A DNA stretch of 64,000 nucleotides from Bryoerythrophyllum caledonicum (Eukaryota; Streptophyta; Bryopsida; Pottiales; Pottiaceae). Shown piece by piece: positions 2,389 through 57,300 of the stretch (the first letter of the stretch is position 1; each line of letters starts with the position of its first letter). The notes beneath the pieces were generated by a model, which saw only the letters and a list, made by a program, of their open reading frames with translations, ran no database searches and was not told the origin of the DNA. The stretch covers positions 6,369,560 to 6,433,559 of the forward strand of contig OZ020525.1 in assembly GCA_963971425.1 (NCBI GenBank). The letters run 5' to 3'. Position numbers and translations under genes: made by a program.

Positions 2389-7208
<4,820 letters not shown>

Positions 7209-8752
7209 CCTGACAAATTCGGTTAAACTCCGCAATTGTTCTCGTCCTTCCTGTCCTGCTCAGATCCAAAAGAGCGTCAACCTCGCGCGCAACGGAATTC
7301 AAACTCCAGCGTGAAAATGTGCTCAAATTCATTCCTCATCCACCCTCATACCTCAACTCTGCCTCCAATTCTCTCACCGAAACCCCGCTTGTTCAACGAG
7401 GCTGGTGCAAGAAGAAACACCAGCACAGAAATGAATTCGCTGCCGCGCCAGCCATCCTCCAGAGCCCTCTCGCTTCAAAGCACCTCACCACCTAGAAAGA
7501 CCACGAGTTCACCGTCAAATTCGTAAACTCCTCGAGCTCAATTCATCTCTACACATTCAACGCGGCGTCTAATCCTCAACTCCTTCAACCCACTTAAACC
7601 ACCGCACAACTCAAAGAGCGCTCTTCCGCAAGCAACGAAATAAAAAAACCCGCTGTCGAAGTCACTCTCAAATCTACCGCCATCAAAGAAACGCTGCATT
7701 CCACTCCCAAAGCTGCAGTAGCGCAATGCAGTGCCTATCCCGAGCTACTACCACCACCACCAGCCTCGAATACACCCGCTCCAAATATCAGAATTCATCG
7801 CTCAAACACTCGTCTAGCTACTGACACTCGTCTGGAAATGCGAGATCCATGACCTCACCTCACGCTCCGAACGAATCCCTCTCAAACCGAAAGCCTTCTC
7901 GAAGTGTCCTACAAGATCCAAAATGCGCACGCCTTCAAAAAAAAAAACAGCACATACATACCTGCGCGGGCGAACGGCGTCGACAAAGAGGAGGGAGCTT
8001 GGAGTGCGAGGGAAGGCCGTTCGAGGTCTGTGAGCGCGCGGGAGTGGCGCTGCGAAAAGGGTGGCTTTCGGGGCCGCAGCATGAATTGGCATTCCGGAAT
8101 TCAACTGGATATGACCCGCACGTCATTGGCTGCTTGTGGAGGGAGTTAGTATTCTGTGGTCGTCTAGCCAGGGACTACACTAATTGGTCTAGAAAGGTCC
8201 TCCCAAATTAGGAGTTTTAACACTTACTATAAACGTCACACGTATTTTACTCTATTGGATACAGAGAATGTATTGAAGTTTAGCAAGACTTACACCTTTA
8301 GATTGGAATTTCTTCAACTGCCATCTTTCATTTGCAGGTCATTTCAATATGTTCATCTTATCATGTTCAAATACAACATTATACATGTAGAATATTGTGG
8401 CCACATTAAACTTTACTACGGTAAGTGATTAGATAGTACTAATGGGGATAATCAGGGTGGTAAGTTGCTAGGATACGTCGACGCTTCTCTGGATTCCTCT
8501 TTATCGGCTTTTCGGCGTTGTGTTTGATTGGTGGCGAGAGTGGCCAACAAGAGGAACGGATATGATGTGAGAATAATTTCCGTATCGAATCATGCACTCA
8601 CTTGTCCACTCTGTCTAATGGAGCTTTGTGTTGTAAGGTTCAGCTTGGGGTGATGTTTAGCATAAGAGTAGCGCTGGTCGTTTTGACCAGTGTGAGTGTA
8701 GAGTCTGTCGCGATAGCGTTGCTACTTAGGTGGCATACACTATCCTTAATTC
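7209..8752. promoter_or_regulatory. Upstream region and probable spliced leader of the phototropin gene
   Basis: No coding exon seen. The base before the phototropin ATG follows an AG acceptor (TTTGTCAG at 7210-7217 on the minus strand), so a 5' untranslated exon probably lies upstream. At 8118-8129 the minus strand reads CCAATGACGTGC, a CCAAT box next to an ACGT-core bZIP-type site. That is the kind of element used in light-regulated plant promoters, but one site is weak evidence and the transcription start is unknown. Confidence 0.35.
8245..8402 (+). repeat. Dispersed repeat, copy 1 of 2
   Basis: About 160 bp matching 11752-11914 in direct orientation. Shared landmarks are ACTTACACCTTTRGATTG, CATCTTTCATTTG and CATTATACATGT. 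Probably part of an old interspersed element; no ends identified. Confidence 0.6.
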
Positions 8753-14304: not shown

Positions 14305-17300
14305 CTAAGGGGGGTCTTGCCTATCAGGGAGGACTTGGTTGTTTTCGATTTTGCGTTTATGCAGTAAAATAGACATGGCATGTTGAATAGCGATGGTGTT
14401 GATATTTTTAAAGATAGTTTTAATTGTATCAATGGGTATCTTGAAGGTATCTTCAAGAGTTTTCATAGATGGGATAAAGGTGGTGGCACGAGCGCCGGAT
14501 GTGATAACAATAAGGGGGTCCACATTCCAGCCGAGGGCAATGATGTCGTCTATGAGGGGTTGGTATTTATCTATTTTGTTTTGTATTGTTTCCGGGGAGA
14601 ATCTATTGTTGCAATATGTAAATTCGATGAATTGAATGGTGTAGTCTTGGTTGATGTTCTCGGGTGGTGGGTCGTTGTATGGTAAACCTTTGACACAGAG
14701 AATGTCCGGTTTGAGCCTAGCGTTGCAATGACATCTTTGGGTCATACATGAGCATGGAAGTAGCCATGGGGGGACCGTGTTTTCTTGTGGATTGCTATTA
14801 AAAGTGCCGGCGTTCATAAGTATGAAACATCTCGATTTATTGTAGGAGGTGATTAGTTTTCGGACTTCCCATACCGCTTTGTTATGTCTTTTAACAATTA
14901 GGGAGTGTATGTGGTGGTTTTGGCATTTGAATAGCACATGAAGCCATGTGTCGGGGTCCATTGAGGGGCATATGGGGCATGTTATGGATGGGAATCTTTC
15001 TATTCCAAAGAAGAGTTGTTTGCAAGCGTTTCCCATGTACTGACCCGTACGGAATTTGATGAGGCACGTTATTTGTGAGTCTGAGATGATGGGGTTTTTC
15101 CAAAAGTTTGTAGAGAGTTCATTGTCTATGTCGTTATTATTAGTCCATTTTTCTATGTTAGGAATATTTTCTGAGATTGTATCTAGGTTGTTGTAGAGGT
15201 CTTGTTTTTTGAGATATTCGCCCAGAAACCTAATTGGGCCTTTGTCGGGGGTATCTTCTTTGGAAGGCCAATCTTCTTTTTGAAAGTAGTATGGGGTGGC
15301 ATGAGCATGTTCGTGAGGGTCTTTGGCGTTTTTGTGTGTTTTTTCTCGGCCTTCTTTTGCAAGTTTGTCTGCTTGTTCGTTGCCATCAATGTTGGCATGG
15401 GCTCTGACTTTGTGAAGGGTTGTGATTTGTGTACGTTTTTGTAACATTTGTACCATTGATGTTAGTATGGTTTGGTCGGGGTGACTGTTGTGAAGGGTTG
15501 GGTGTGTTATTTGAGTGTTTAGTAGGTAGAGTGCATTTATACAATCGGTGAATATATGTGCAGGTTCATTTTTGTATTTTGTTGTGATGATTTGTAGTGT
15601 TTTGTGAATGGCCATGAGTTCTGCTCTGAGGATATTTTGTAGTCCATGGAGTCTTTTGGCTAGTTTAATTTCTTTGGTAGAATTATATATGCCATAGCCA
15701 GCTTTTTCTCTTCGCCAAGAGCCCGGGCTAATTTGTTCCGGTGGTTTAAAGGAGCCGTCGGTGTAATAACTGTATGCGGGGTTAAATTTTGCTATGGTAT
15801 GAGTTGGGTAGTCTAGGAGAGGGGGAAGTATGACGGAGTAGTTTAATGTGTTGTTGTCATAGTTTAATTTTGACCATTTTTTACTTTTGTTTACGGGGGT
15901 TTGTATGGGTGTTGGTGGGGCCGGTTTTGTGTATGGTCGTTGTATGTCTAGATTGTCTGTTATGGAAGTAAGTTCCGCTAGTTGTTCTAGGGAGCCCAGG
16001 TTTTGATTTTGATGATGGACGCATAGTATTTGTAATGTAGATGGCTCTATTCGGGGTTTTTTTAGCTCGGGTGGGATATTAGGTTCTTCGTATGGTATTG
16101 TGTCTGCTTCGAATAATGCAATGATGTGGGAATCTGGGAATGGGTTTGAATGTTGGTTGTTGTTTTGGTACCAATTGTTGTTCGGTGTGACGATGATTGT
16201 TTTTGTGTTATTTGGATCGTGTTTGGCGGCAAGTCTAGCCCAATGTATGGCTTGTTCTATGTCTTTCTCGTTGTGGGGGTGAGCTATTCCATTTCCGATC
16301 CATTTGTGTTCAAAGGCCTTGCCTAGGGATCCAAATATTTTGTCTCTTTCGTACGGTGAGTAGAATTTGTTTAGTTTGGTAGGACATGTGATCGGGGAGG
16401 AAAAGTATGAGTGTTCGATGTTAAAGGATGATATTAGTGAGTCTAAGATGGGGGTGGGTATTGTGTATTGCGCATTTTTGAGGGGGTCAGTTTTTGGTAT
16501 TCGATATTTATATCTTTGGTAAAGCCATATTAGTTCGGTTTCAAAGGGTTGGGTTGTTGGTTCAATGTTTGTAGGGGATTGTAATTTTGTATGATATTGG
16601 TTCCATAACCATTGGAGCCGGGTAATGGGTATGGTGTGTAAATGTCGGCCGTTTTCTTCGTATAGATGTGCTTGATTGTTATCTATTTGAATTGTGTTTG
16701 AGGATGTAAGGATATCATTTTCGGGGTTGCATTCTATTGTGTAGATGTTTAAGAGTGGGATAATTATGGGTGGCGTTACGGACCTTGAGTCTGAGGATTG
16801 TTCTTGTGGATGGTGGGCAAGGATGATATCTAAGTATATTTTGTTTTGGATCTTTTGGTAGTATTGTTTTAATTTTTCAGTGTTATGTGTGGAGGTATTG
16901 GCGTCATGCCGTGGAAAAAGGTCTCTTTGGGGGAGCCATTTATTGTATGTATTATCATTGTGTTGCCATTGGCATAGGTATTTTGTGTAGGTATTTTGTA
17001 TGTTATTTGTGTCTGTGTGTTGGATATGTTTATGGTTTATGATATTATTAATGGGGTATGTGGTAGGGTTTTTGGGGATGTATGTTGGGGGGCGAGGGTG
17101 GTATGTATGTGGAGGGTTAGGGGGATTGGTTGGTGTGGGAATATTTCTTGGGATGATGTTATTGTTGAGGGTGATGAATGGATCTTTAAGTGTATGAGAG
17201 TATGGGTGTATGTTGCAAGGAGTATGACATATTGTGGGGCATGTTATGTGGCAAAATAGTTGTTTAGCAACACTTAGGGCACTCTTTATTAGTTTAGATG

Positions 17301-17706
17301 GGGTGAAGTGGTAGGTTTTGAAGTCCTCATTGTTCATGATGTGTGTACCATTAGGTAAGGTAATTTGATTTAGTTCAAAAATATTTTTTGAGAGGAGTTT
17401 TTGTAGAAGTTTTTGGGAGAGTTGGGCATTGAGTCCAAATAGGTTATGTGGTAGTTGGGTTATTGCATTTGACATACATTTTGGTAATCCACATATGGTT
17501 TTTTGTATGGCTATTATTTTTTTATCAAGTTTTTTGATAGCTGGCATAGAGTATGGAACACCGTAGAAACTGTATGCCACACCTCGGCGTAGTACGATAT
17601 CAACCATTTTTATTTTTTGTTTCATGGTGGCTGGGCATGTTGTTGGTTCTTTGCATTGTTTGATGAGCTTTGTGGTTGTAGTGTGGATTTGGATTTTCCA
17701 TTTCAG
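14305..17706 (-). CDS. LINE ORF2, C-terminal part: RT tail, RNase H, CCHC finger, restriction-like endonuclease
   Basis: Open frame of about 1130 codons continuing the RT thumb (LVPSLKWKIQ then RRGVAYSFYGVPYS). RNase H has all acidic residues: TDGSF (about 15750-15768), RAELMAIHK (about 15615-15640), FTDC (about 15545-15556) and AHANIDGNEQAD (about 15372-15408). It is followed by a finger C-x2-C-x9-H-x4-C (about 14930-14988), RHN (about 14882-14890), KPDIL (about 14701-14715), IEFTYC and K-x2-KY. The order CCHC, RHN, KPD, acidic residue, Lys matches the endonuclease of R2-type and Dualen elements, which nicks the target for priming. This frame is offset from the APE-RT frame by a break near 17715. 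TAG stop at 14305-14307. Confidence 0.8.
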   Translation of the reverse strand: MKWKIQIHTTTTKLIKQCKEPTTCPATMKQKIKMVDIVLRRGVAYSFYGVPYSMPAIKKLDKKIIAIQKTICGLPKCMSNAITQLPHNLFGLNAQLSQKLLQKLLSKNIFELNQITLPNGTHIMNNEDFKTYHFTPSKLIKSALSVAKQLFCHITCPTICHTPCNIHPYSHTLKDPFITLNNNIIPRNIPTPTNPPNPPHTYHPRPPTYIPKNPTTYPINNIINHKHIQHTDTNNIQNTYTKYLCQWQHNDNTYNKWLPQRDLFPRHDANTSTHNTEKLKQYYQKIQNKIYLDIILAHHPQEQSSDSRSVTPPIIIPLLNIYTIECNPENDILTSSNTIQIDNNQAHLYEENGRHLHTIPITRLQWLWNQYHTKLQSPTNIEPTTQPFETELIWLYQRYKYRIPKTDPLKNAQYTIPTPILDSLISSFNIEHSYFSSPITCPTKLNKFYSPYERDKIFGSLGKAFEHKWIGNGIAHPHNEKDIEQAIHWARLAAKHDPNNTKTIIVTPNNNWYQNNNQHSNPFPDSHIIALFEADTIPYEEPNIPPELKKPRIEPSTLQILCVHHQNQNLGSLEQLAELTSITDNLDIQRPYTKPAPPTPIQTPVNKSKKWSKLNYDNNTLNYSVILPPLLDYPTHTIAKFNPAYSYYTDGSFKPPEQISPGSWRREKAGYGIYNSTKEIKLAKRLHGLQNILRAELMAIHKTLQIITTKYKNEPAHIFTDCINALYLLNTQITHPTLHNSHPDQTILTSMVQMLQKRTQITTLHKVRAHANIDGNEQADKLAKEGREKTHKNAKDPHEHAHATPYYFQKEDWPSKEDTPDKGPIRFLGEYLKKQDLYNNLDTISENIPNIEKWTNNNDIDNELSTNFWKNPIISDSQITCLIKFRTGQYMGNACKQLFFGIERFPSITCPICPSMDPDTWLHVLFKCQNHHIHSLIVKRHNKAVWEVRKLITSYNKSRCFILMNAGTFNSNPQENTVPPWLLPCSCMTQRCHCNARLKPDILCVKGLPYNDPPPENINQDYTIQFIEFTYCNNRFSPETIQNKIDKYQPLIDDIIALGWNVDPLIVITSGARATTFIPSMKTLEDTFKIPIDTIKTIFKNINTIAIQHAMSILLHKRKIENNQVLPDRQDPP

Positions 17707-20700
17707 TGAGGGAACAAGATTTGTACCTTAGGGTATATGTATGGTTCGTTTTGGTGTAGTATAGGGATTGGTTGGTTGCGGTAGTTGATGTTGGAGGTTT
17801 GCATTAGGGCTTTGAAAGTGGTAGGGTTCAATTTGGATTTGTTTGGGCATCCGGTAGCGGCACATTTTGGAACTCCCACATCCATACCAGCCCATTTACA
17901 ATATCTATCAATTTTATGGAGTTGTATTTGGGTTGATTTGATTTTGTTAGTTATGGTGGCTAGGTCATCTACGTATGCGGCGGAGTTTATTGTGACTTGT
18001 GATGTGCCAGAAGTATATCCGTTATTGCCTCTTTCTAGCCATCTAAGTAGTGGTTCTAAAAATATAATAAATAGGTATGGGCTGAGGGTGTCCCCTTGTA
18101 TAGTTCCTCTTTGGATGGGTATAGGTTTTGTTTTCCCAAAGTGTTCGCCGATATAGCAAGTAGATGATTGGGAATAGATGTTTCCAACAAGTGTAGTTGC
18201 CTCTTTTGGGTAGCCAAGGTCTGACATTATTGCTAGAAGTCTGGCATGATCAATTGAGCCAAAGGCATTTTTGAAGTCCACGTATAGTATGTATATATCT
18301 TGGTTAGTAAATTTTGCGTCTTCTAATGCGGCTATTATAGTTTGTATTTGCCTTGCGGTACTTCTCTCCGCTCTAAATCCTTCATGACTATCATGTAGGA
18401 TTTTGAATTTTTCGCCGTATGAGGATAGTATGTGGGTGAGTGTACTGGTAAAAAGCTTATATATTGTGTTAGCTAGTGCAATTGGTCTATGATTGGGTAG
18501 CATGAATGGATCGCCTTTTTTGTATAGTAGAATTGTTGCACTTGTTTTCCATGAATTTGGTATTTGTTTTTGTTTATAGCAATGAGAAAAGAATAGGAAT
18601 AGTAGTTTATGAAATCTTGGAGGCATGTTTTTGAGTATTGAGTTTGGTATGCGGTCTGGGCCTGGGGCTTTATTATTTCCAAGATTTTGGAGGCATGTGT
18701 CGTATGTGGCTCTGTTGAGGTATTTATGTAGTGGAATTTCTGGTTCGCCCCGTTTGTCAAGGGTATATCCGTCCAGGTCGTGCCAAGGGTATTGGCGTAT
18801 TGCACATGTGCATTCTATTGTATGTTGTGGCTGGTAATTACATGTTGGTACTGTTGGTCTATTGGTTTTTGTTTGTTGGTTGAATATTTCATTCGCAATG
18901 TCTTCGGGGCTAGTTAGAATATTATTATATTGATCTTTGATACAATCCATTGGTGGGGATTCAAGGTTTTTAAAGACTTTTTTGTTAATTTTTTTGGGGC
19001 TGATTTCGTATAGTTGTCTATATTTTGAGATGGCTTTTTTAATGTTTTCTTTTGTGTATTTTGTGATTATTTTCCGGGCTTGTATGTTGGCATTTTTTGC
19101 AATTATCGCGATATCTTTTATCCATGTATCTTGGGGAAGGTCCGGAGGCGGCGGGGTAGGGATTTGGATGTGTTGTATATTTGATAGTTCGTTGTGTATG
19201 GGGTGGTTACGCCATTGAGGGTTGTTTTTTACAATTCTAATGGTTTTACGTATGGTATGGTATGTGGTTAAGTGTTGTTTCCAAGTTTTAGAAAGTTTGC
19301 GGGGTAGATACCCGCCTTGTTGAGAGGTTTTGTTTGTCATTTGGGGTATTGGGTGTGCTCTACAAGTTTGTTCTAGTGTATCAGAGATTTTATTGATGAG
19401 TTTGTCTAGAGAGTGGCATGCTTCTTGCCATTGTGCTTGTGTTAATTGACTATTGATTTCTAGAGTGTTTATGAGAGAGTCTATTTGTACGGTGTTTTCT
19501 TCGAAGAATTTTGTGTTGAATTTTTCTATGTTGGTTTTTGGGATGGGGTTGAGTATGCGTATAGTGTCTTTGTTTGGGATTGTAGGAGTTCTACTAATTA
19601 GTGTGTTATTTGGGATGTGCAGTTGTACGGGTGAGTGGTCCGAATTGAGAATAATATCTTTTTTTGTTGTGGAGGTGTATTGTGTGTTGTTGTTTGTATT
19701 TATACAGAAACCATCTATTAGACTCCAATCACTATAATTGTAGCCACCTTGTCTAGAGAATTGTGTATCGGTATTGATGTAAGTGAAGTTTAAGTTTTCT
19801 GTGAAGCGGCGCCATTGGTAATCAATGTTTTGAGGGGGGGTGTGATGGTTTCCATTTTGGCGGCCAATTAGCGCTATGTCTATATTGAAGTCTCCACATA
19901 ATAGGTATGTATGATTGGGATGATTATTAATATGGGTTGTAATAGTGTTTTGTATATCTAAGAAAAATCTAGTATCTTCGGGATAGGATGGCATATACAT
20001 GTGAAAGATTAACCATGATTGTAGTGGGTGATTAGTGATTTTAATTATTTGAATGTATGGTGATATGTGCATTGGGGTAGGGATTTTGTTGATGTTGCCG
20101 GGGAATGTATATTTTTTGTGTATTAATGTAAGGAGGCCACCGCGGCCCGGTGTGTATGGTCTCCTTTGTTGCATGCATCTTGTAAGTGCATGTGTATTGT
20201 TAAAGATGAGTTTATAGTCTTGAAATATATTTTGTATATATTTTGTAGATTTTGTGGCGGTTAGTTTTCTTTCTTGTATAACTATAAGAGCCGGTGGTGT
20301 CTCTGTGTTTGCGACTAGAGTTTGTAAGCTAGGAAGGGCAGTGTTTAGTGAGGAGGCATTCCATGTGATTATGTATGTATTTTCTTGGTTTGGTCTAATG
20401 TTTTGATTTTGGTTTTGAGGAGGGATGTAGGGAAGAGGTGGGGGTGGGTGGGTGTATTCTGGTATAGGGTCTAGACATTTTATTGATTCACTTATGAGGT
20501 TGTTAGGGAGGTAAGGGAATTTTAGTTTTATTATATCATTTGAGGGTGGTATGTCTTGACTATGTAAGAAGTCGTATAGTCTTTTATGTATTGAGTTCTC
20601 ATGGTTTATAATATTTTGGTTGTCTACTAGGAATTCAGTATAGGGGTGTGGAGTGTAAATGTGTCGTTCTGGTGGGTTTTGTAAGGTTAGTAAGGTTTGT

Positions 20701-20985
20701 AGGAGTGTATTAGTCCATGTAATTGTGTTCCAATCTTGTGGATTTAGAAGTTGGTTACATTCATCTATGTTTGGATGAGTAGTGATTATTAGTGCATATA
20801 AGATGTGGGGTGGTGGATGCGTATTTTTTTGTTGTATGTATTGGGCAATGTTTGGGTGGGAAGTGTTTTGTATGTGGTGTAATGTATGTGTGTTTTTTAG
20901 AAATGGTGCGAAGGGTTTTGCAATGTGTTTATATTCTCGTTGGAGTTTTATGGTATTAGGTATAAAGTAGATTTTGGCATTTTTT
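17703..20985 (-). CDS. LINE ORF2, central part: APE endonuclease and reverse transcriptase
   Basis: Open from just after a TAA at 20985-20987 to the TGA at 17703-17705, about 1090 codons; the first ATG inside (20174) is downstream of the start of the APE domain, so it is not the true start. APE motifs: ITWNASSLN (about 20343-20369), IQERKL (about 20262-20279), GDFNID (about 19879-19896) and SDHSPV (about 19629-19646). RT motifs include the FRAERSTARQ region (about 18350-18380), QRGTIQGDTLSPYLF (about 18070-18115) and the catalytic AAYVDDLA (about 17961-17984). A 180-residue Pro-, His- and Asn-rich linker precedes the APE domain. The frame ends in mid RT thumb and continues in another frame at 17706, so a small indel near 17710-17725 is likely. 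Copies target-site DNA in target-primed reverse transcription. Confidence 0.85.
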
Positions 20986-21403
20986 TATGTGATGTAGGAT
21001 GTCTTTTTAGTATATTGGGCATGGGTCCCGGGTTGGTTTCAATGTCTCCTCCTAGAAGTAGTAGGAGTTTGTGGTATATATGTTTAGTGGTGTATTTTAA
21101 AGGCTTTGTTGTGTTATTAATGACTTGTTGGTTTGGGGGTAGGTGGATGTTTGTATTTTGTGTGGGAGTTGTGGGTTTATTTATTTTTATAGTAGGTGTA
21201 GTTGTTTTCGTCTTTAGTTTATTTTTTGTCCTTGTGTTTTTTGTGGTTGTTTTTGTTTTAGTAGTGTATGGATGTATGTATGATTGGTTGTATTTTATCT
21301 TGGTTGTTTTTGTCCGTGTGCATATGTAACTATTATGTTTAAGACTATTTGTATGTGGGTTTATGTTGGTTTTTAAAGTGGCTTTTAAGTCTTTTTTTTT
21401 CAT
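20948..21403 (-). CDS. LINE ORF2 segment carrying an intact 2A-like motif
   Basis: A 151-codon frame bridging the low-complexity frame and the APE-RT frame. It is basic and Lys-, Thr- and Asn-rich. Its end carries LLLLGGDIETNPGP followed by MPNILKRHP. It overlaps the preceding frame at a run of nine A (minus strand; 21392-21400) and the next one at a run of seven A (20980-20986). After the second run the other frame gives KNAKIYFIPN, matching the equivalent place (NTKTYFIPN) in the upstream duplicate. This suggests one original continuous frame altered by indels in the A runs, although slippage is possible. Confidence 0.6.
   Translation of the reverse strand: MKKKDLKATLKTNINPHTNSLKHNSYICTRTKTTKIKYNQSYIHPYTTKTKTTTKNTRTKNKLKTKTTTPTIKINKPTTPTQNTNIHLPPNQQVINNTTKPLKYTTKHIYHKLLLLLGGDIETNPGPMPNILKRHPTSHKKMPKSTLYLIP
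21023..21046 (-). other. 2A-like ribosome-skipping motif, intact (DIETNPGP)
   Basis: Minus-strand codons give DIETNPGP preceded by a leucine-rich run, matching the D-V/I-E-x-N-P-G-P consensus. In viruses and several LINEs this motif makes the ribosome skip the final Gly-Pro bond, releasing the upstream protein and continuing downstream. The skip would fall between codons 21026-21028 and 21023-21025. It lies about 200 codons before the APE core, so it would separate the low-complexity N-terminal part from the enzyme part. Confidence 0.8.
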
Positions 21404-24050
21404 ATGCAGTGTTATTATATACTTTGTGGTTTGTACAATTGTTTGTTTTGGTGTTTGTATTAGTATTTGGTATGAAATATGTTTTGGTATTCTTTTTGTG
21501 CGAAGCGGGGTGTCTTTTTAATATGTTCGGCATGGGTCTTGGGTTAGTCTCCATGTCTCCTCCAATTAATATTAGTAGTTTGTAGTAGATGGGTTTTATG
21601 TTTTGATTTAGAATTTTTTGTTTTTGAATGTGGCTTTGGTATTTGTGTTTTTTTGATTGTATGTGTTTGTCTTTGTATGTGTGTATGTATATGTATGTGT
21701 TTTGTTGATGGTGTGTGGTTGTCTTTGTGTGTGTGTATGTAGTTTTATGTGGTATTATATTAGTATTCTTTTGTATGTTTGTATTAGTGTATGTCACGGT
21801 TTTTGTCTTGGTATTTGTATCAGTATCTTTGTTAGTATTTGTGTTAGTATTCGTATGAGTACTCATACCATTAGTTGTATTGGTATTTGCATTTGTATAA
21901 GTATAAGTATTTGTATTTATATACATACCATTATATGTATCAGTATACGTACCAGTATTTGTATCAGAATATTTATAAGTATACTCATCGGTGTATGTAT
22001 CAGTATAAGTATCGGTATACGTATCAGTATATGTACCCATATACTGAAATATTGAGTTTTTTAAAAGATATCTTTCTAAACATATTTTGTCTAAAACTAT
22101 GATTTCTAAAAATAGAATAATATTTATTTCAATCAGATTCGTATATATTTTTACTTTTATTAGAATTTCTATTTTTAGTAAGTCTATTTTTTGCGCCTCC
22201 TGCGCCCATCCGGCTGGCGAGACATGAATCCAACCTCCAATTATAATAATTCTACATACTCTCAACAAAATTCTACTACTTAATATCGAACTCCCCTCAT
22301 CTTTATATATAAAATTTTTAATATTACTACTAACTTTCCATTTATCTCTGTAGTTTATATTCCATTTTCTATTTTTTGACTGTACTCTTTTATTACTACT
22401 ATCTTCTCTATTTCTTTTTACTCTGAAATTTTTGTTTTTCATTACAAGTTTGGTTAATTTTCCATCCGTTATTTTTGAATTTCTTAGAAAGTATAATCTA
22501 TTTTTAGAACTGTTGTTTATAGCTATAGCCTTCCTATTTGTATTCTTATTATATTTGATTCGCATTACTGTTTTGGTGCATTTTTCGTCCTTTATTTTTA
22601 AATTTCTTAGGAAGCATATTCTATTTTTAGTTCTGCTGTTTATAGCTATGTTCTTCATATTTGTATTCTTATGATAATTAATTCTCATTACTAATTTTGT
22701 TAATTTTCCATCCTTTATTTTTGATATCCTTATGAAGCCTATTCCATTTTTAGTACTGCTATTTTTAGCTCTGTTCTTGTTATATGTATTCTTATGATAA
22801 TTGTTCTCTACCTGACCCTTTGTTTTCTTCTTACATATCCACTCCGATTTTTTTGTTTTATTATTAATATTTCTTGCTCTATTTGAAACCTTTGAAATTT
22901 CATAAATATCTATCTTCTTCCTATTTAGTTTATAATATCTCTTTTTACTCTCCTTGATTTCCCTATTTTTAGACATTTTCCCATCCCTACTCTTCTGATG
23001 GTTTCTGAATTTAGATTTCCTTCTACCCTTATTTATCTTTATTACAAGATTTCCTTTATTATTTTCATTATTATTGTTTCCTTTTTTGTTATATGTAGTT
23101 ATGATACTTATTTTCTCTTTCCTTTTATTATTTATTCTTATTCCATCTCTTCTCTTATTCCTTTTATTATTTATTTTTGTTTTCATACTTCTGTTTTTTG
23201 TTTGTATCTTTAATCTATACCTTTGATTAATTTCATCCATTTCATTTATTTTTGGGTTTGTTTTCGTTTTATTAAGTGTAGTTGTATTGGTTGTGGTTGT
23301 ATTGGTTTTCGTCTTCACATGTATGTTTTTATTGGTATATGTCTTGGTATTTGTCTTAGTATTAGTATTTGTCTCAGTATTTATGTCCTTGTTTGTCTTA
23401 GTATTCGTACAAGTATTTGTACCAATATTCATTCCAGATTTTGTACTAGTGTCCATATCAGTATTTAAACCTGTATTTGTATCAGTACTCGATCCAATAT
23501 TCGTATCAATACCCGTATCAGTATTTGTTCCAGTGTATGTACCTGTATATGTAATAGTATGTGCATTATTGTTGGTATTTTCCCTATGTATTGTATTGTA
23601 TGTTATGGAATATACTGTCGGTTTCAGTTTTGTGTATGGAGCTTGATATATGTATATTCCCATTTTTTTAATACATTGTAGGTATTTTTTAATGCGAGTT
23701 TTGGTATAATGTTGTATTTTGTATTGAGAGTATTGTTTAATACAATAGAATTGTTTGTATAGTGCAAGTATTGGTATTTGTTTGTGGCTAAGGTATGTAA
23801 GTGTTTTTGTATACTTTTTGTATTGCATAGAGTAAAAAATACAGCGTTTGGTATAGTATGTAGTATGGTATTGTCTACTGTATTTATCATGGTATTGGGT
23901 AAGGTGTCTAATACGGTATGTGTATATTGTTCTCACATACTTGTATGCTATTGCGTATTTAAGACTAGTGTCAATAAAGTATTGTAAACTATAGTATATT
24001 GTAAGATAGGTATGAATTTCCCTGCGGTCTTGGGAGGTCACATGTTTGAC
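21345..24050 (-). CDS. Long low-complexity LINE reading frame between ORF1 and the APE domain
   Basis: About 900 codons without a stop, ending TAG at 21345-21347. It opens only at 24050, ten bases before the end of ORF1, and has no ATG near its start, so translation would need frameshifting or restart from ORF1. The protein is rich in Lys, Asn, Thr, Tyr and Ile. Its parts are a Tyr-rich N-terminus, a Thr-x dipeptide array (about 23280-23560), a basic Lys/Asn/Arg region with three in-frame 41-residue repeats (about 22438-22810), a second Thr-x array (about 21830-22040) and the degenerate 2A motif. No known domain is visible. A 900-codon open frame in such AT-rich DNA argues for selection or for repeat growth in frame. 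Confidence 0.5.
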   Translation of the reverse strand, partial: VKHVTSQDRREIHTYLTIYYSLQYFIDTSLKYAIAYKYVRTIYTYRIRHLTQYHDKYSRQYHTTYYTKRCIFYSMQYKKYTKTLTYLSHKQIPILALYKQFYCIKQYSQYKIQHYTKTRIKKYLQCIKKMGIYIYQAPYTKLKPTVYSITYNTIHRENTNNNAHTITYTGTYTGTNTDTGIDTNIGSSTDTNTGLNTDMDTSTKSGMNIGTNTCTNTKTNKDINTETNTNTKTNTKTYTNKNIHVKTKTNTTTTNTTTLNKTKTNPKINEMDEINQRYRLKIQTKNRSMKTKINNKRNKRRDGIRINNKRKEKISIITTYNKKGNNNNENNKGNLVIKINKGRRKSKFRNHQKSRDGKMSKNREIKESKKRYYKLNRKKIDIYEISKVSNRARNINNKTKKSEWICKKKTKGQVENNYHKNTYNKNRAKNSSTKNGIGFIRISKIKDGKLTKLVMRINYHKNTNMKNIAINSRTKNRICFLRNLKIKDEKCTKTVMRIKYNKNTNRKAIAINNSSKNRLYFLRNSKITDGKLTKLVMKNKNFRVKRNREDSSNKRVQSKNRKWNINYRDKWKVSSNIKNFIYKDEGSSILSSRILLRVCRIIIIGGWIHVSPAGWAQEAQKIDLLKIEILIKVKIYTNLIEINIILFLEIIVLDKICLERYLLKNSIFQYMGTYTDTYTDTYTDTYTDEYTYKYSDTNTGTYTDTYNGMYINTNTYTYTNANTNTTNGMSTHTNTNTNTNKDTDTNTKTKTVTYTNTNIQKNTNIIPHKTTYTHTKTTTHHQQNTYIYIHTYKDKHIQSKKHKYQSHIQKQKILNQNIKPIYYKLLILIGGDMETNPRPMPNILKRHPASHKKNTKTYFIPNTNTNTKTNNCTNHKVYNNTAYEKKRLKSHFKNQHKPTYK
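21534..21557 (-). other. 2A-like motif, degenerate duplicate (DMETNPRP)
   Basis: Second copy of the same module, 511 bp upstream in the element. Flanking residues are closely similar (KLLILIGGDMETNPRP then MPNILKRHPASHKK). The glycine of NPGP is arginine here. Gly is essential in studied 2A peptides, so this copy should not skip. The pair is a tandem duplication, one member conserved and one decayed. Confidence 0.75.
21660..22045. repeat. Hexamer-based minisatellite (GTATNN) in the LINE
   Basis: Degenerate 6-bp units such as GTATCA, GTATAC and GTATTT on the plus strand. On the coding strand they give alternating Thr-x dipeptides (TDTYTDTYTD). Period 6 keeps the frame open. A sister array lies at 23280-23570. 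Confidence 0.8.
22438..22810 (-). repeat. Three 123-bp tandem repeats inside the LINE frame
   Basis: Three consecutive copies of a 41-codon unit (each with a YHKNT or YNKNT start, a central KNR or KNG, and a KDGKLTKLVM-like end) at about 22684-22810, 22561-22684 and 22438-22561. The length is a multiple of three and the frame is kept in all copies. Confidence 0.7.
23280..23570. repeat. Second hexamer-based minisatellite in the LINE
   Basis: Same GTATNN-type period-6 array as at 21660-22045, here encoding Thr-Asn, Thr-Asp and Thr-Lys dipeptides on the minus strand. Confidence 0.75.
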
Positions 24051-26440
24051 TCAATTCTTGGATTGTTGGTTTTCCCCGTGATAGCTCGCATAGTTTGGAG
24101 TGTGGCAAACATGGATTCCTCAATTGCCTCCATCTTTTCTTTCAAGTCATCGTGTAACTTGTCCGCATACTCCCTATTTTCTTGCCTTAGCTTCTTGTTG
24201 TTCTCCTCCAATAATTCTATCATGTCCTTCTTCGTGATGACCTCACTTTGCATGTTGAAGGTGGTCATTGTGTTGACAATGGCGGTATTGATGTCGCTAA
24301 ATCCAAAATCCTTCACTTGGTCTTCGGTCGGTGGTTTTAGGCCTTCTAAGCTTCTAATGTGTGGTGCAAAATCCACATAATTTCCTCCAATGACATGTGT
24401 TTTCTTCACAAAGGTTCTATACACGATTGGGTTAGCACAAAGCACATTTGCACTACCATTGTGATTATTGCCTTCGGACCGGTGGAAATAAATAGACCTC
24501 ACATTAGCTCCTCCCATTATTCTATAGATTTCGTGGGTGGTGTGTGGTGTGTCCAAACGGAGAGGGAGTGGTGAAAGAGTAAGAGTCAAAGCATCTTTTC
24601 TAGCCTTAGTTTCGAAAATACCTTTTGGTCCTTTTGAGTCAAGGACTTGTTTTGCTTGCACGACCTCCTTTCTCATGGTAATATGATGCAACAAAATCTT
24701 GGCCACTTGTTGAGGTGTGGTCGCCATGATAAAGGCATGGGATTCGCCAAGTACCTTATGTACTCCGGTGATCTCAAACTCGTGTCCCCGATGAAAGCTA
24801 TTTTCGAGTACTTCCTTGAAGAGCACTAGTGCGGAGATGTTCACTAGAGTGTCACACTTAACCTTCACCGAGAGGTTAGAACCATTGGCAATTCCATGAT
24901 ATGTCTTACACACCTTTCCAACTACATATTCACCATCAATCGTTAGAATAAAGGGCTTAATGCCCTTGAGTAGCATTAGACCATCAATCTCCGGTTTAAG
25001 GAGATGCAATTTAACACTTCCTGCCCATACCCCTTTAATTTTCCCATGCTTAATGCTTAAACATTGGATGTCAATTGGGTCAATAAGGTCTATCCCAAGT
25101 ATAATGTCCATTTTTTTAAGTCTTTCTTCAACCATCTTCTTTACCACATCTTTCATGATAGGAGTTTTGGGAGTTTCAAAGAAGATAGCAACATGAAAAT
25201 CAAGGGAGAGTCCAGAACTCTCACTAGTTTTGATGTCGAAAGGCACTTGAGTGACGTTGTAGTGTTGGCCTTCCACTCCATTCCTTGTCATGGGGTATAG
25301 TAGTTGCGGAATTCGTGGGAAGGCCGTCCTAGCGTTGCATACCTCCAAGGCGTCTTCCTCCTTCATTCCCCTTGTCATCATGTCTTCAGCCGTCTCCCCG
25401 CTAAATAGTTCTTCTGCACCTTCTTCAATTGCCAAGGCCTCCATGGCTTTGAAACCCATCCAAAACTTGGGCTTAGTAAGTTCTGGTTCATAGAAGGACT
25501 TACCTTTTTCACTGGGGGTGAACTTGCTCTTCTTACTTGTGCTCTTCTCCTCTTCTGTTCTTCTCTGTGGCCTCGTGTTGTGGGTTCTATGAGGTGTGTT
25601 GTCCAGGGATTCAACATCCATGTATGTGGCCAAGTTCTTCTTCGCGTTCCTCGATGGTTGGTCCTCTTGTAGTCTCTCTTCCTGTGAGCTGGTTTCTGGA
25701 ATTCGTATCGTTCTTCCTTCTGAAGTTCTCCTCGAATTCATCATGCTTGGGGGTGTGAGGTCGCTGGGGGATGGGAGGTCGTTAGTGGATGGGAGGTTTC
25801 TGGTGGGTGCAATGTCACTAGTGGGTGTGAGGACTGTAATGGATAGGAGGTCGTTGGAGGGTGGGGGGTTGCTAGTGGGTGGTAGGTCGTAAGTGGGTGC
25901 GAGGCCGTTGGGGGGTGGGAGGTCGCTGAGAAGTTGGGGTCGTTGGGCAGGGGTCAGGAGTCCAGGCAGGGTCGCGTTGTGCCTGTTCTGTGGTTGTCTT
26001 CGTGAGGGGGGTGGTTGCCTGGCTTCTGTTGGAGCGGGTGACCTCGGGTGGGTGTAGGGTTTGGGGTTGGGTTTGAGCACCGACTCGGGCGTCTTCAGGG
26101 ACGAGGAGCGGTCGCCTAGGTGCTGCGGAGCCTCGTGTTGTGGTGGGTTTTGGACGAGTGCCGTCTGTAGAGAGCGAGCGTCGTCTGTGTAGTCGGTTGG
26201 TTGCCGCGGGGGCTTCTGCGTATGATCTAGCTGCTGCAGGGGCTTCTGCGTATGATCCTGCTGCTGTAGGGGCTTCTGCGTACGATCCAGCTGCTGCGGG
26301 GCCTTCTGCATATGATCTAGCTGCTGCGGGGGCTTCACCGTGTGATTCAGCTGCTGCGGGGGCTTCTGCGTACGATCCAGCTGCTTCGGGGGCTTCTTCG
26401 TATGATCTAGCTGCTGCGGGGGCTTCTCCGTATGATTCAA
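24038..26440 (-). CDS. LINE ORF1 protein (nucleic-acid-binding, coiled-coil C-terminus)
   Basis: About 800 codons, ending TGA at 24038-24040. Parts in order: decapeptide repeats (KPPQQLDHTQ type) from the 30-bp minisatellite; a Pro-rich stretch with roughly ten six-residue units of LPPTSD type (about 25757-25925); a basic charged stretch with EKSTSKKSKF; a globular middle of about 330 residues with alternating beta-like and helix-like segments; and a C-terminal heptad-type helix (LLEENNKKLRQENREYADKL). Disordered repeat, globular region and coiled coil fit a LINE ORF1 that packages the RNA, but I cannot assign an RRM or zinc knuckle with certainty. The same frame continues upstream through the repeat (26710-26456) apart from one TAG unit at 26456-26458, so the N-terminus is unclear. 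Confidence 0.65.
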   Translation of the reverse strand: MNHTEKPPQQLDHTKKPPKQLDRTQKPPQQLNHTVKPPQQLDHMQKAPQQLDRTQKPLQQQDHTQKPLQQLDHTQKPPRQPTDYTDDARSLQTALVQNPPQHEAPQHLGDRSSSLKTPESVLKPNPKPYTHPRSPAPTEARQPPPSRRQPQNRHNATLPGLLTPAQRPQLLSDLPPPNGLAPTYDLPPTSNPPPSNDLLSITVLTPTSDIAPTRNLPSTNDLPSPSDLTPPSMMNSRRTSEGRTIRIPETSSQEERLQEDQPSRNAKKNLATYMDVESLDNTPHRTHNTRPQRRTEEEKSTSKKSKFTPSEKGKSFYEPELTKPKFWMGFKAMEALAIEEGAEELFSGETAEDMMTRGMKEEDALEVCNARTAFPRIPQLLYPMTRNGVEGQHYNVTQVPFDIKTSESSGLSLDFHVAIFFETPKTPIMKDVVKKMVEERLKKMDIILGIDLIDPIDIQCLSIKHGKIKGVWAGSVKLHLLKPEIDGLMLLKGIKPFILTIDGEYVVGKVCKTYHGIANGSNLSVKVKCDTLVNISALVLFKEVLENSFHRGHEFEITGVHKVLGESHAFIMATTPQQVAKILLHHITMRKEVVQAKQVLDSKGPKGIFETKARKDALTLTLSPLPLRLDTPHTTHEIYRIMGGANVRSIYFHRSEGNNHNGSANVLCANPIVYRTFVKKTHVIGGNYVDFAPHIRSLEGLKPPTEDQVKDFGFSDINTAIVNTMTTFNMQSEVITKKDMIELLEENNKKLRQENREYADKLHDDLKEKMEAIEESMFATLQTMRAITGKTNNPRIESNM

Positions 26441-26811
26441 CTGCTGCGGGGGCTTCTACGTACGATCCAGCTGCTTCGGGGCCTTCTGCGTATGATCTAG
26501 CTGCTGCGGGGGCTTCTCCGTATGATTCAGCTGCTGCGGGGGCTTCTGCGTATGATCCAGCTGCTGCGGGGCCTTCTGCGTATGATCTAGCTGCTGCGGG
26601 GGCTTCTCCGTATGATGCAGCTGCTGCGGGGGCTTCTGCGTACGATCCAGCTGCTGCGGGGCCTTCTGCGTACGATCCAGCTGCTTCGGGGGCTTCTCCA
26701 TATGATTCAACTGCTGCGGTGGCTTCTGCGTACGATCCAGCTGCTGCGGGGCCTTCTGCGTATGATCTAGCTGCTGCGGGGGCTTCTACATATGATCCAG
26801 CTGTTGTGGGG
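26198..26811. repeat. 30-bp minisatellite, about 20 units, within ORF1
   Basis: Units of the type GCTGCTGCGGGGGCTTCTGC followed by GTAYGATCYA, with two alternating variants (GGGGGCTTC and GGGGCCTTC). As 30 is divisible by three and stop triplets are rare in the unit, several frames stay open: KPPQQLDHTQ-type and AAAGSYAEAP-type decapeptides on the minus strand, and ASAYDLAAAG-type on the plus strand. Only the first leads into the ORF1 body. Units are close in sequence, so the array is young or homogenised. Confidence 0.9.
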
Positions 26812-27611
26812 ACGAGCTTGTACAAGGAGAGGAGCAGCCGTCCAGTTCTAGTCCGGGCGCTCTTGTCTAGGTGGGTATAGGGTTCGGGGAGGGTTGAATC
26901 GGGTCTGGGTAGAGGTGAGGGTTGTGGGAAGAGGGGGTTGTGAAGGTGTAGGAGGGGAATTGCAGAAAGAATTGAAAGTGTTGTAGGAATGCTTACCTCC
27001 TTGTTTGTCTTTGAGCTGAATCTTGCTTGTTCGTGGGATACTTGCTGCTGTATAGTTCTTCCTTGATTGCCAATCTCCTTCTGTTGACCGCCTCCAGGTC
27101 GCCTCTCGCAGCTGCTGCTGGTGTGTGGAGTTGAGATGTTGGTGTAGATCGCGAGCTGATGTGTGTGCGCGCGGTTGATCCTTGCCTTTCGGGGTGGGTT
27201 CAGGCCTTCCTGTACTCCTTGTGCTTGTTGTATAGATCTGTAGTGATTTTGCCAGCGCTTCCGCGTGTAATGTATAGCTACAACCTTCCTAGAGATGTGC
27301 TTAAGGGTTGTGATGTGTCTAGGTGCTTGCAACGTGTTGTTTAATGTGAAAAGGGTAAGGACTTGTAATCTAAGTATGACTTCTTTGTTGCAACGAAAAG
27401 ATGAATGGTGATGGAGTTTGGTGAGGAACTTACCTGGATCTGGAAGAGTTGATCTTTGGAGTTGCCTGTACAGATCTCGATTTCTGCGCGTTTGGATCCC
27501 CGTAGACTTCACGGTCGATGTGTCCGGCAGTGATATGTGGGCTGCTGTTTTGCTGGGATTGCCGATGTCGGCTCTGCTGCTGCAGCAGCTGGTCCTCTTG
27601 GCGAGATCCAC

Positions 27612-54355: not shown

Positions 54356-57300
54356 TCAGCCCCGGAACAGGAATCGCAGGTCCTCCGTTGTCAGCCGAGA
54401 TCCTTTCTCGCCTCCACCCGTCTCCCCAAATGCAGATGCAACAATTTGTCTTTTCCTTTCCTGCACCATGCAAATCCATCATAAGGGAAGGTGTTCAACG
54501 AATATGAGAAGAAAACACGAGTGTTTGTTTAATTTGAAAGAAAAACGCTTGTCTCTCAAAAAATGAATTTACTGATTTTCGTTTCTTAGCAGTAATTGCT
54601 TTGAATTGCAAAATATCCAAGATATTTTCAGTACTGCCGACACAACTTTTTTATCGTTTCGGCGCCTGTTGAAGATATTGCGCAACTAGTCTTACAGCAC
54701 ACATGACATTACGTCAAGAATGATAAGCTCAGAGCAAACCTGTAATGCTAAGATACGATCCTCAATGGTGTTTTTCACAGTAAACCGTGAAACTCTCACA
54801 GTCCGAGTCTGCCCAATGCGATGCGCCCTGTCGATTGCTTGGTCTTCAGTGGTCGGATTCCACCACACATCCAGGAGCAGCACGTGACTTGCAGCCACCA
54901 TGTTCAGCCCCAGACTGGCCGCTTTCAGAGACATGATCATCACTGTCACCTGTTCACAAGAAAATATGGCTCAGGACAAGATTCTGAGATACCGCTTGCA
55001 AGATACTACAAAGGCTCTGATCAAGACAGAGGGATTACGAAAGTGCTAAAAGGCCGGACCTCTGGAAGACTGTTGAAATCGGAGACGGCTCGGTCTCGTG
55101 CAACAACGGACATGGTGCCATCAAGTCGTCGATAACGGAATCCTGCCTGCTTCAAGGGCGTTTCCAGAAGGTCCAACATGCTTGTCCATTGCGAAAACAC
55201 AATGGCTTTCTCTGTGGAATACACCTTCTCGATTGTGCTCGCAGTAGACTCTGATGCAACTGCAACAATGGCAGCCTCTGGAACAATGGCGGACTCAGAT
55301 GCCCCTGGAACAATAGGAGACGCAGCGTTGCCCTCGTCCACAACATCCGGAGCTGCTTCCAGTTTCAGCAGCATCTCCACTTTCGGCCCCTTGACGATCT
55401 TCCCGTCCTCCACCAGCACGCTTATCTTTGGCAAGGCCTGCAATGTGCTGATTACAGCATCAATCTTGGAGGACGTGTCCCAAACAGGTTCAATGTGCTC
55501 TTGCGGTTCCCCATTCACCACGCTGCCACTTCCTCCATCGACGTTTGGATTCTTCAAAGCAGCGAGTGTAAACAGTAAAGAGGAGTTCAGTCCCCTCTTG
55601 CACTTAGGAAACCGACAGGTTGTGTCGTCGCCGTTTGCCAACTGCTCGAATATGCACTGTCGGCAGAACACATGTGCGCATATGCTAACCATTGGTTCTT
55701 CAGGCGCATCCTGGGCAACAACAAACGGTAAAACACACACGTGAATGTTATAACGTCATCCAGATTATAACAATCCCAGCTAAACCACCCTCCAAAGCAG
55801 AAACAGTCCAAGAGGCAACAAAGCAAACTAAGACCTTAGTATTCAGAAACCAGTCTTTAAACCCAGAGGCCGTTTACGGTAGTTCTCCACATCACAATTT
55901 CCGATCCTTCATGTCAATATTCATATGCATCAGCTCCAGTTACCTACACATGTAAGACTGAGAAATCAAGAAAATGATACCTGACAGATGTGGCAAATTG
56001 TCCGACCACCTTCCAAGCACTGGATTAGCACAGCACGTTGAGGAGGAGGTAGCTTCCGAATGGCTTCCAATGTCGCCTTCTGAAAACTTTCGCTCTTCAC
56101 ACTCTTCTTCACAAGCATCGGATGGTCACATGCCTGCCTTAGCCGCAGCAACATCCAAAGAATGTTTACATAGTTGTTCTGCACGGTTCCCGCTCTTGCA
56201 TACTCCTGCATGTTGCACAGATCGAGGTCAATAAGAAAAACCTTAACAAAGACACTAATGCCAGAGTGACATTCTAGCTAAGGCTTCACCACCGTGTGCC
56301 AGCTTTGACTGCGTCGGCATGTAAAATCTAAAAGTTAAAATACGATAATGTTGGTGTTACAAACCTGGAACTGTGCTCGTGACTCAGTTTCCAAGTTCGA
56401 GTAGAAGACGCGCTCGTCATTGCTAAACTCTGATTGCTTGAGTTTAACAATTCTAGGAGGTAGATTGACAATGGGCTTTCCGTCTATTAACGAAGCTGCA
56501 CGAAAACATTCACGTTCAGAACCTCGGGGACCAACTGACGATAGTCGAACTGCATCTCCAACTCTCAGCGAAAAGTGCAAATTAGCATTCCGTCCTCTCT
56601 GAAACTTTGCAAGTCCAATGTTATGCAATCTCAAAGCAAGCCCATCGTAGCCACACCTAGTCACACATTACATCAAGAAACAAACATGCGCTTGTCACTT
56701 ACTTTTGGTACGCCTCAGAACGATTGGTTTCAGGATTGCTTGCAGCTTCTTATAGCCCTCATTAGGATTCCGACTCACAGGATCCTTGATATCATGCTGA
56801 AACTTCTTGTACACGTCCCATGGACAGTAACGTAAGAACCGAAAGTAGCTGAACAGATCGTCTATAGAGTTCTGAATGGGCGTCCCGCTCAGGCACCATC
56901 GCCTTTTGGCCCGGAGACCCCATGCCGCACGTGCCACCTGAGTTCTATGATTCTTGATGCTCTGAGCTTCATCTAAGACAACTCTGAACCAGGCCACCCG
57001 TGCCAGAGGGCCTGCGTCAAGAGAGAAACCGTCGGCGTCTACACCTACCTTCTCCTTCTTGGGCTTCTTGGTCGGTTTCTCTTTCTTGGGTTTCTGGAAC
57101 GGAATAAAGCCATGCTGCTCGTAAGCAGCCCTCCTGTTCTCTTCCTCCTTTTCCTCGGGAAGTGCCTGCTTTGGAACCTCCATGCTCACAATGGAGAATG
57201 TTGAAAGCACAACGTCGTACTTGGCAATCTCCTGTGGATCCTTGATCCGATTGCTTCCATGGTACACCAGAACTGTCAAGTCTGCCTCCGCTGTGACCTT

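Follow-up and report, generated by a model that had tools for sequence, protein, structure and literature searches.

A conserved 2A (StopGo) core precedes the enzyme of a very abundant LINE family in a streptophyte genome

Does a 2A (StopGo) peptide separate the enzyme of a streptophyte long interspersed nuclear element (LINE) from the sequence encoded upstream of it? This question is raised by a 64,000-nucleotide stretch of contig OZ020525.1, referred to here as the window. A sequence-only reading had placed two 2A-like octapeptides on the minus strand of the window, DIETNPGP at 21046-21023 and DMETNPRP at 21557-21534, spaced 511 bp apart in duplicated modules with matching flanks (YHKLLLLLGGDIETNPGPMPNILKRHPTSHKK and YYKLLILIGGDMETNPRPMPNILKRHPASHKK), and position, strand, spacing and flanks were all found as described. 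The assignment to a LINE was borne out by apurinic endonuclease (APE) and reverse transcriptase (RT) domains, and the assignment to a streptophyte host by a match to SAM_LFY in the genome (E 1.3e-27, best of 7), LEAFY being, to our knowledge, restricted to streptophytes. The canonical core (D/G/C/N)(V/I)ExNPGP is matched by DIETNPGP, which lies ahead of the APE domain as had been proposed. The distal module has Arg in place of the Gly that 2A requires before the last Pro. As described below, a very abundant LINE family in this genome carries the 2A core before its enzyme, and the enzyme-proximal module is very probably a working StopGo signal of this large family, judging from comparisons among its copies. 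The features on which the argument depends are:

20981-21082, minus strand: proximal 2A module with the core DIETNPGP at 21046-21023 and the leader YHKLLLLLGG, present in other copies
21492-21593, minus strand: distal 2A-like module with the core DMETNPRP at 21557-21534, Arg in place of Gly
20980-20986, minus strand: A-run at which the register of the window copy changes from the 2A frame to that of APE-RT
17703-20984, minus strand: APE and RT frame (APE about 20369-19626, RVT_1 about 18512-17853)

The window copy itself is a dead element. Its NPGP lies in the frame 20948-21517 and its APE-RT in the frame 17703-20984, shifted by one base, and further breaks were found in the RT and RNase H frames near 17703-17727. 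Because the 2A and APE-RT frames differ, this copy is unable to make the enzyme via its own 2A, and the idea that its intact 2A serves its own APE-RT was rejected. The same register change after the 2A was found in two other loci (L002 and L019). The proposal that the intact 2A is placed to free the enzyme thus fails for the copy from which it was drawn, while it holds for the register of all 59 copies with a module in a second subfamily described below.

Conservation of the 2A core across the genome

The genome searched comprises 437 Mb in 894 contigs and includes the window. The pattern GGD[IM]ETNPxP was matched 1729 times (882 + 847), compared with no match of the backward-read control pattern (0 + 0), and the Gly-bearing form GGD[IM]ETNPGP was matched 1405 times (715 + 690; reversed control 0). 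This recurrence exceeds chance. As the pattern leaves only the Gly codon free and holds all other residues fixed, it tests Gly alone; among 100 matches listed, Gly was kept in 83 and replaced in 17 (15 Arg, 1 Ser, 1 stop). In 27 of the 28 loci retrieved via the motif (L001-L028) the match belongs to the LINE superfamily, with the conserved region following the 2A present, and L002 is broken right after its 2A module. A sequence search with a motif-containing query, in which 150 places were scored, is biased with respect to motif retention because the query itself contained the motif. Open frames of at least 2000 codons were found at more than 50 of these 150 places, the longest with 3757 codons. 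In L012 the frame is open across the 2A module and extends over 3119 codons within the stretch examined.

For a motif-blind sample, the 115 residues downstream of the motif in L022, a member of the second subfamily, were used as query; 150 places were scored, and 60 of them were fetched so as to sample the top, the middle and the end of this list. DIETNPGP was present in 54 of the 60 copies (53 via the script pattern plus L050, in which Arg precedes the Asp), while three carried NLGP, one NRGP and one NPGA, and one had no module (L079). Together with the 1405 Gly-bearing matches, this answers the call of the sequence-only reading for a search of other copies: NPGP is kept. The module was in register with the APE side in all 59 copies that have it, with an intervening stop in two (L037 and L093), and Met directly follows the core in 58 of 59.

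The ratio of nonsynonymous to synonymous differences (pN/pS), with substitutions counted over all pairs and L079 left out for want of a module, was 0.049 for the eight-codon core in 59 copies and 0.057 (bootstrap 0.013-0.135) in 49 distinct sequences; these and the following values are descriptive and not formal tests, since the copies are related. The linker directly upstream of the core gave 0.94 and 0.98 in the same copies, the Leu-rich leader 0.40 (59 copies), and successive windows after the core 0.17 (codons 8-15), 0.46 (codons 16-23), 0.05 (codons 24-31) and 0.08 (the next window). Read in its two alternative frames, the core gave 4.1 and 1.1. Of the eight core codons, those for D, I, T, N and the two P varied synonymously in this sample, and those for E and G were constant. 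Purifying selection appears to preserve the 2A core in the second subfamily, and the simple-repeat linker before it is, by these ratios, evolving neutrally.

Tandem modules are not a peculiarity of the window. Ten same-strand pairs with a spacing of 494-855 bp were present among the 100 GGD[IM]ETNPxP matches listed; the enzyme-proximal module carries Gly in 10 of 10 and the distal module Arg in nine and Gly in one, in counts that are non-independent, the copies being related. DMETNPxP has 186 matches in the genome, with 98 Arg, 1 Ser and 1 Gly among the 100 listed, and NPRP is therefore the inherited state of a propagated subfamily. A lesion private to the window copy was rejected, as DMETNPRP recurs across the genome; the distal module had been read as decayed in this copy, and this part of the earlier interpretation has to be given up. 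Other distal remnants were cut after GGDI (L021) or read DIGTIPGP (L023) or NPRS (L007). In two tandem pairs, C1:6319947-6320482 (6319947/6320457) and C1:44910457-44910992 (44910457/44910967), both modules carry NPGP. If both modules of such a pair skip, a middle peptide of approximately 170 residues would be released.

Weighing a StopGo function of the proximal module

Four observations taken together make an active StopGo signal by far the likeliest interpretation: the pattern of selection, the exact core combined with a leader resembling a known type, the register, and what has become of the duplicates. According to this model, the ribosome would enter from the side of the first open reading frame (ORF1) and the low-complexity linker and arrive at ...LLLLLGGDIETNPG, where the Gly-to-Pro bond at the core would not be formed and the upstream peptide would be released. 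Translation would then resume to yield a separate enzyme starting with P-MPN... and comprising APE, RT, PCIF1-like, RNase H and R2-endonuclease-like regions. The 2A may in this way shield the enzyme from the linker, in which the simple repeats differ from copy to copy, and an upstream duplicate of the module would be redundant, free to lose its Gly or to become truncated.

Several points weigh against a working signal. Skipping and the fate of both products are inferred from sequence comparisons. Five of the 59 sole modules in the motif-blind sample carry one core substitution and are damaged. This sample covers the second subfamily only, while the window's subfamily was assessed at the Gly codon alone, and the tandem-pair counts come from related copies. 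Moreover, among nine second-subfamily loci with unbroken frames, seven have no AUG in the interval from the ORF1 stop to the 2A (L096 and L097 have two each), and in the loci without an upstream AUG the first one directly follows the 2A (NPGP-MPN), where, in principle, the enzyme might begin.

The latter observation, together with the nearly fixed Met after the core, speaks for internal initiation or re-initiation at the AUG behind the motif, with the conservation of the motif reflecting, for example, an RNA signal. We regard this as improbable: the core amino acids are kept while their codons vary (pN/pS about 0.05), which is not favoured by an RNA signal, and the agreement with the full 2A consensus would be coincidental. 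Less probable still is a conserved but non-skipping peptide of the enzyme or linker, such as a hydrophobic interaction or targeting segment. The L-rich leader could act in this manner, and constraint is also seen after the core (0.17, 0.46, 0.05 and 0.08), but against it stand the agreement at all constrained positions of the published 2A core, the neutrality of the preceding linker, and the loss in distal duplicates of precisely the Gly (Arg in 98 of the 100 listed DMETNPxP) or the end of the core (L021, L023), which would be expected were skipping the specific function. Finally, both modules might be functionless relics in which NPGP persists merely through the youth of the copies. The dead window copy and the stops and frameshifts in many fetched copies agree with this, yet it is scarcely credible when, within one set of copies, the core has a low pN/pS and the adjoining linker is neutral.

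Enzyme, ORF1 and linker of the element

The remaining features of the element in the window are:

16177-16581, minus strand: PCIF1-like domain (PF12237) between RT and RNase H, over cut-off
15346-15774, minus strand: RNase H domain (PF00075, E 6.5e-13)
14356-15198, minus strand: C-terminal region with CxxC..H..C and KPD..E..K..KY, assigned by eye
24038-26455, minus strand: ORF1, an open frame of 805 amino acids with its stop at 24038-24040
24038-24050, minus strand: stretch in which the end of ORF1 and the -1 frame leading to the 2A region overlap, seen in the sequence; in eight other loci of this family the -1 frame also continues beyond the ORF1 stop
21594-24050, minus strand: linker frame, open, Thr/Asn/Lys-rich and of low complexity, with repeats D2-D4

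An APE-RT enzyme with an N-terminal part had been expected; APE and RT were found, and in addition PCIF1-like, RNase H and R2-endonuclease-like regions as well as ORF1 upstream. The RT of the window copy was matched by PF00078 (E 1.9e-24), and R2 proteins are the best PDB relatives of the RT. The APE was matched by PF03372 (E 6.1e-5) and PF14529 (E 7.6e-5), each slightly under the curated cut-off, which PF03372 exceeds in L012; in both copies the APE endonuclease precedes the RT. The regions following the 2A in L021 and in second-subfamily loci are alignable, with 54-56% identity.

PF12237 was detected in the window with E 1.9e-10 (E 1.2e-11 when the stretch was searched alone) and was above cut-off at all 150 genome places scored (2614 candidates). 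A frame length of 3087 amino acids is common to 33 of these 150 PCIF1-domain matches, L021 included, and the copies sharing it are a young subfamily. A PDB profile search with the domain gave a weak match to PCIF1 (E 0.13). At the position of NPPF, which we take to be the catalytic motif of PCIF1, AHPH is present in 11 of 11 aligned copies (placed by eye). Since AHPH stands where PCIF1 has NPPF, the site of this methyltransferase-type domain in the LINE is, as far as the alignment indicates, conserved but altered.

PF00075 was not listed in a Pfam scan of the whole 3119-amino-acid frame of L012, the RNase H region of which is 94% identical to its counterpart in L021. Across 10 aligned copies, the CxxC..H..C and KPD..E..K..KY residues of the C-terminal region show little or no variation, and by eye the CCHC plus KPD..E pattern resembles the R2-type restriction-like endonuclease. 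A PDB profile search with this region yielded one chance-level match (E 0.83), and a single-sequence AlphaFold prediction of it was unusable (mean predicted local distance difference test score, pLDDT, 36). As neither profile nor fold supports an R2-like endonuclease, it stays a claim by motif, and the region is an unproven candidate.

A homologue of ORF1 is encoded in the second subfamily (27-33% identity). No Pfam match was obtained with the whole ORF1 frame up to E 0.1, only sub-threshold matches with its C-terminal 480 amino acids up to E 10, and one chance-level match in a PDB profile search (E 0.22). In both subfamilies, the ORF1 stop lies within an open -1 frame that begins 1 to 121 nt upstream of it. 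For the second subfamily, 20 of 150 matches were fetched, mostly with preference for long ORF1 frames, and the stop was present in 19; of these 19, 16 had a -1 frame without a stop throughout the 350 nt fetched, and one had such a +1 frame. In the window's family, nine loci keep the -1 frame open for 156 to 2694 nt beyond the stop, and their +1 frames end after 36-78 nt. The first motif downstream belongs to the -1 frame at 11 of 12 loci of the second subfamily and at 5 of 9 of the window's family. All of these frame counts are inflated by simple repeats, and L095-L101 were selected for long frames. This comparison of ORF1 ends excludes L121 (stop absent from the locus), L022 (ORF1 end lost) and L016 (match off the ORF1 stop).

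The hexamer before the ORF1 stop in 30 second-subfamily loci is TCAAAC (26), TTAAAC (2), ACAAAC (1) or TCTAAC (1). ORF1 usually ends with TCAAAC TAA TAG in this subfamily, often with AGCGTCAAACAACGCT after it, which might form a small hairpin. The P-site codons TCA, CCA and TTA re-pair poorly for a -1 slip of the canonical kind, and frameshifting at the ORF1 end is for this reason not claimed as shown. In L022, ORF1 is joined straight to the 2A by polyglutamine. Upstream of the 2A, L035-L101 contain hypervariable repeats of the CAA/AAC/ACA type encoding polyQ, polyN, polyT, NH or PQ tracts; these linkers are of very different lengths, and several loci are open in all three frames. It is possible, if on the whole doubtful, that a -1 shift or a non-AUG restart occurs at the short conserved ORF1 overlap, after which the frame-tolerant repeat linker, often devoid of an AUG, would be traversed and the 2A would free the enzyme. 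If this two-step course is true, the 2A would let the element tolerate unchecked growth of the repeats midway through its coding sequence, and the first step would determine how much ORF1 protein is made relative to enzyme.

Elsewhere in the window, a 30-bp tandem repeat (26082-26921; 19 copies in register of a 300-nt reference) encodes a KPPQQLDHTQ-like sequence in one frame and, in a second frame that overlaps it, a SYAEAPAAAG-like one. Open frames for a PAS-domain protein (6189-7235, minus strand; PF13426, E 1e-20) and for helicase/RING and SNF2 proteins (55024-57600, minus strand; PF00176, E 4.4e-41) are perhaps host genes.

Relation to known elements and significance

In known 2A-bearing LINEs, the 2A is located near the APE domain, as it is here. 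The 2A core within a LINE is common to both, and such elements are cited in PMC12846837 and PMC4981915. Unlike these, the element described here has a streptophyte host, tandem modules, a hypervariable simple-repeat linker and an enzyme with PCIF1-like, RNase H and R2-endonuclease-like regions. Among the viral StopGo leader classes of PMC12846837, motifs 2 and 6 have an L-rich hexapeptide ending in (A/S/C)G. The D(V/I)ExNPGP core is likewise found here, behind a similar-looking L-rich hexapeptide whose last two positions are a small residue and Gly, and the carrier is a retrotransposon. By eye, the leaders LLLLGG (window) and LIILCG or LLLLSG (other subfamilies) resemble these L-rich classes; the window leader ends with GG, which is not among the endings given there, while the others end with CG or SG. 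The exact 2A module was sought in viral contigs without a match.

The Dualen/RandI LINEs of Chlamydomonas and its relatives combine APE, RNase H and an R2-endonuclease-like C-terminus, as outlined in a passage of PMC4640811 (further descriptions in PMC8226300, PMC12747079 and PMC3747384). The present element has a similar layout, a likeness by domain order in which the endonuclease is a motif match only. A 2A and a PCIF1-like domain, both present here, are unmentioned in the passages of these sources on Dualen/RandI.

2A peptides are familiar chiefly from animal viruses and from some transposable elements of animals and parasites, and their occurrence in LINEs is already known; what is unexpected here is the host lineage and the scale, and the element is unusually elaborate. 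A literature search found no report of a 2A in a streptophyte LINE, a weak absence, as the surveys Odon 2013 and Rao 2025 were not covered. According to PMC12846837, StopGo is seldom encountered in cellular genes, and plant viruses were not found to make natural use of it. The family described here would be a natural source of many 2A variants from the plant lineage, with the Gly-to-Arg siblings as natural controls, and a 2A in a streptophyte LINE raises the question of how LINEs separate ORF1 from the enzyme.

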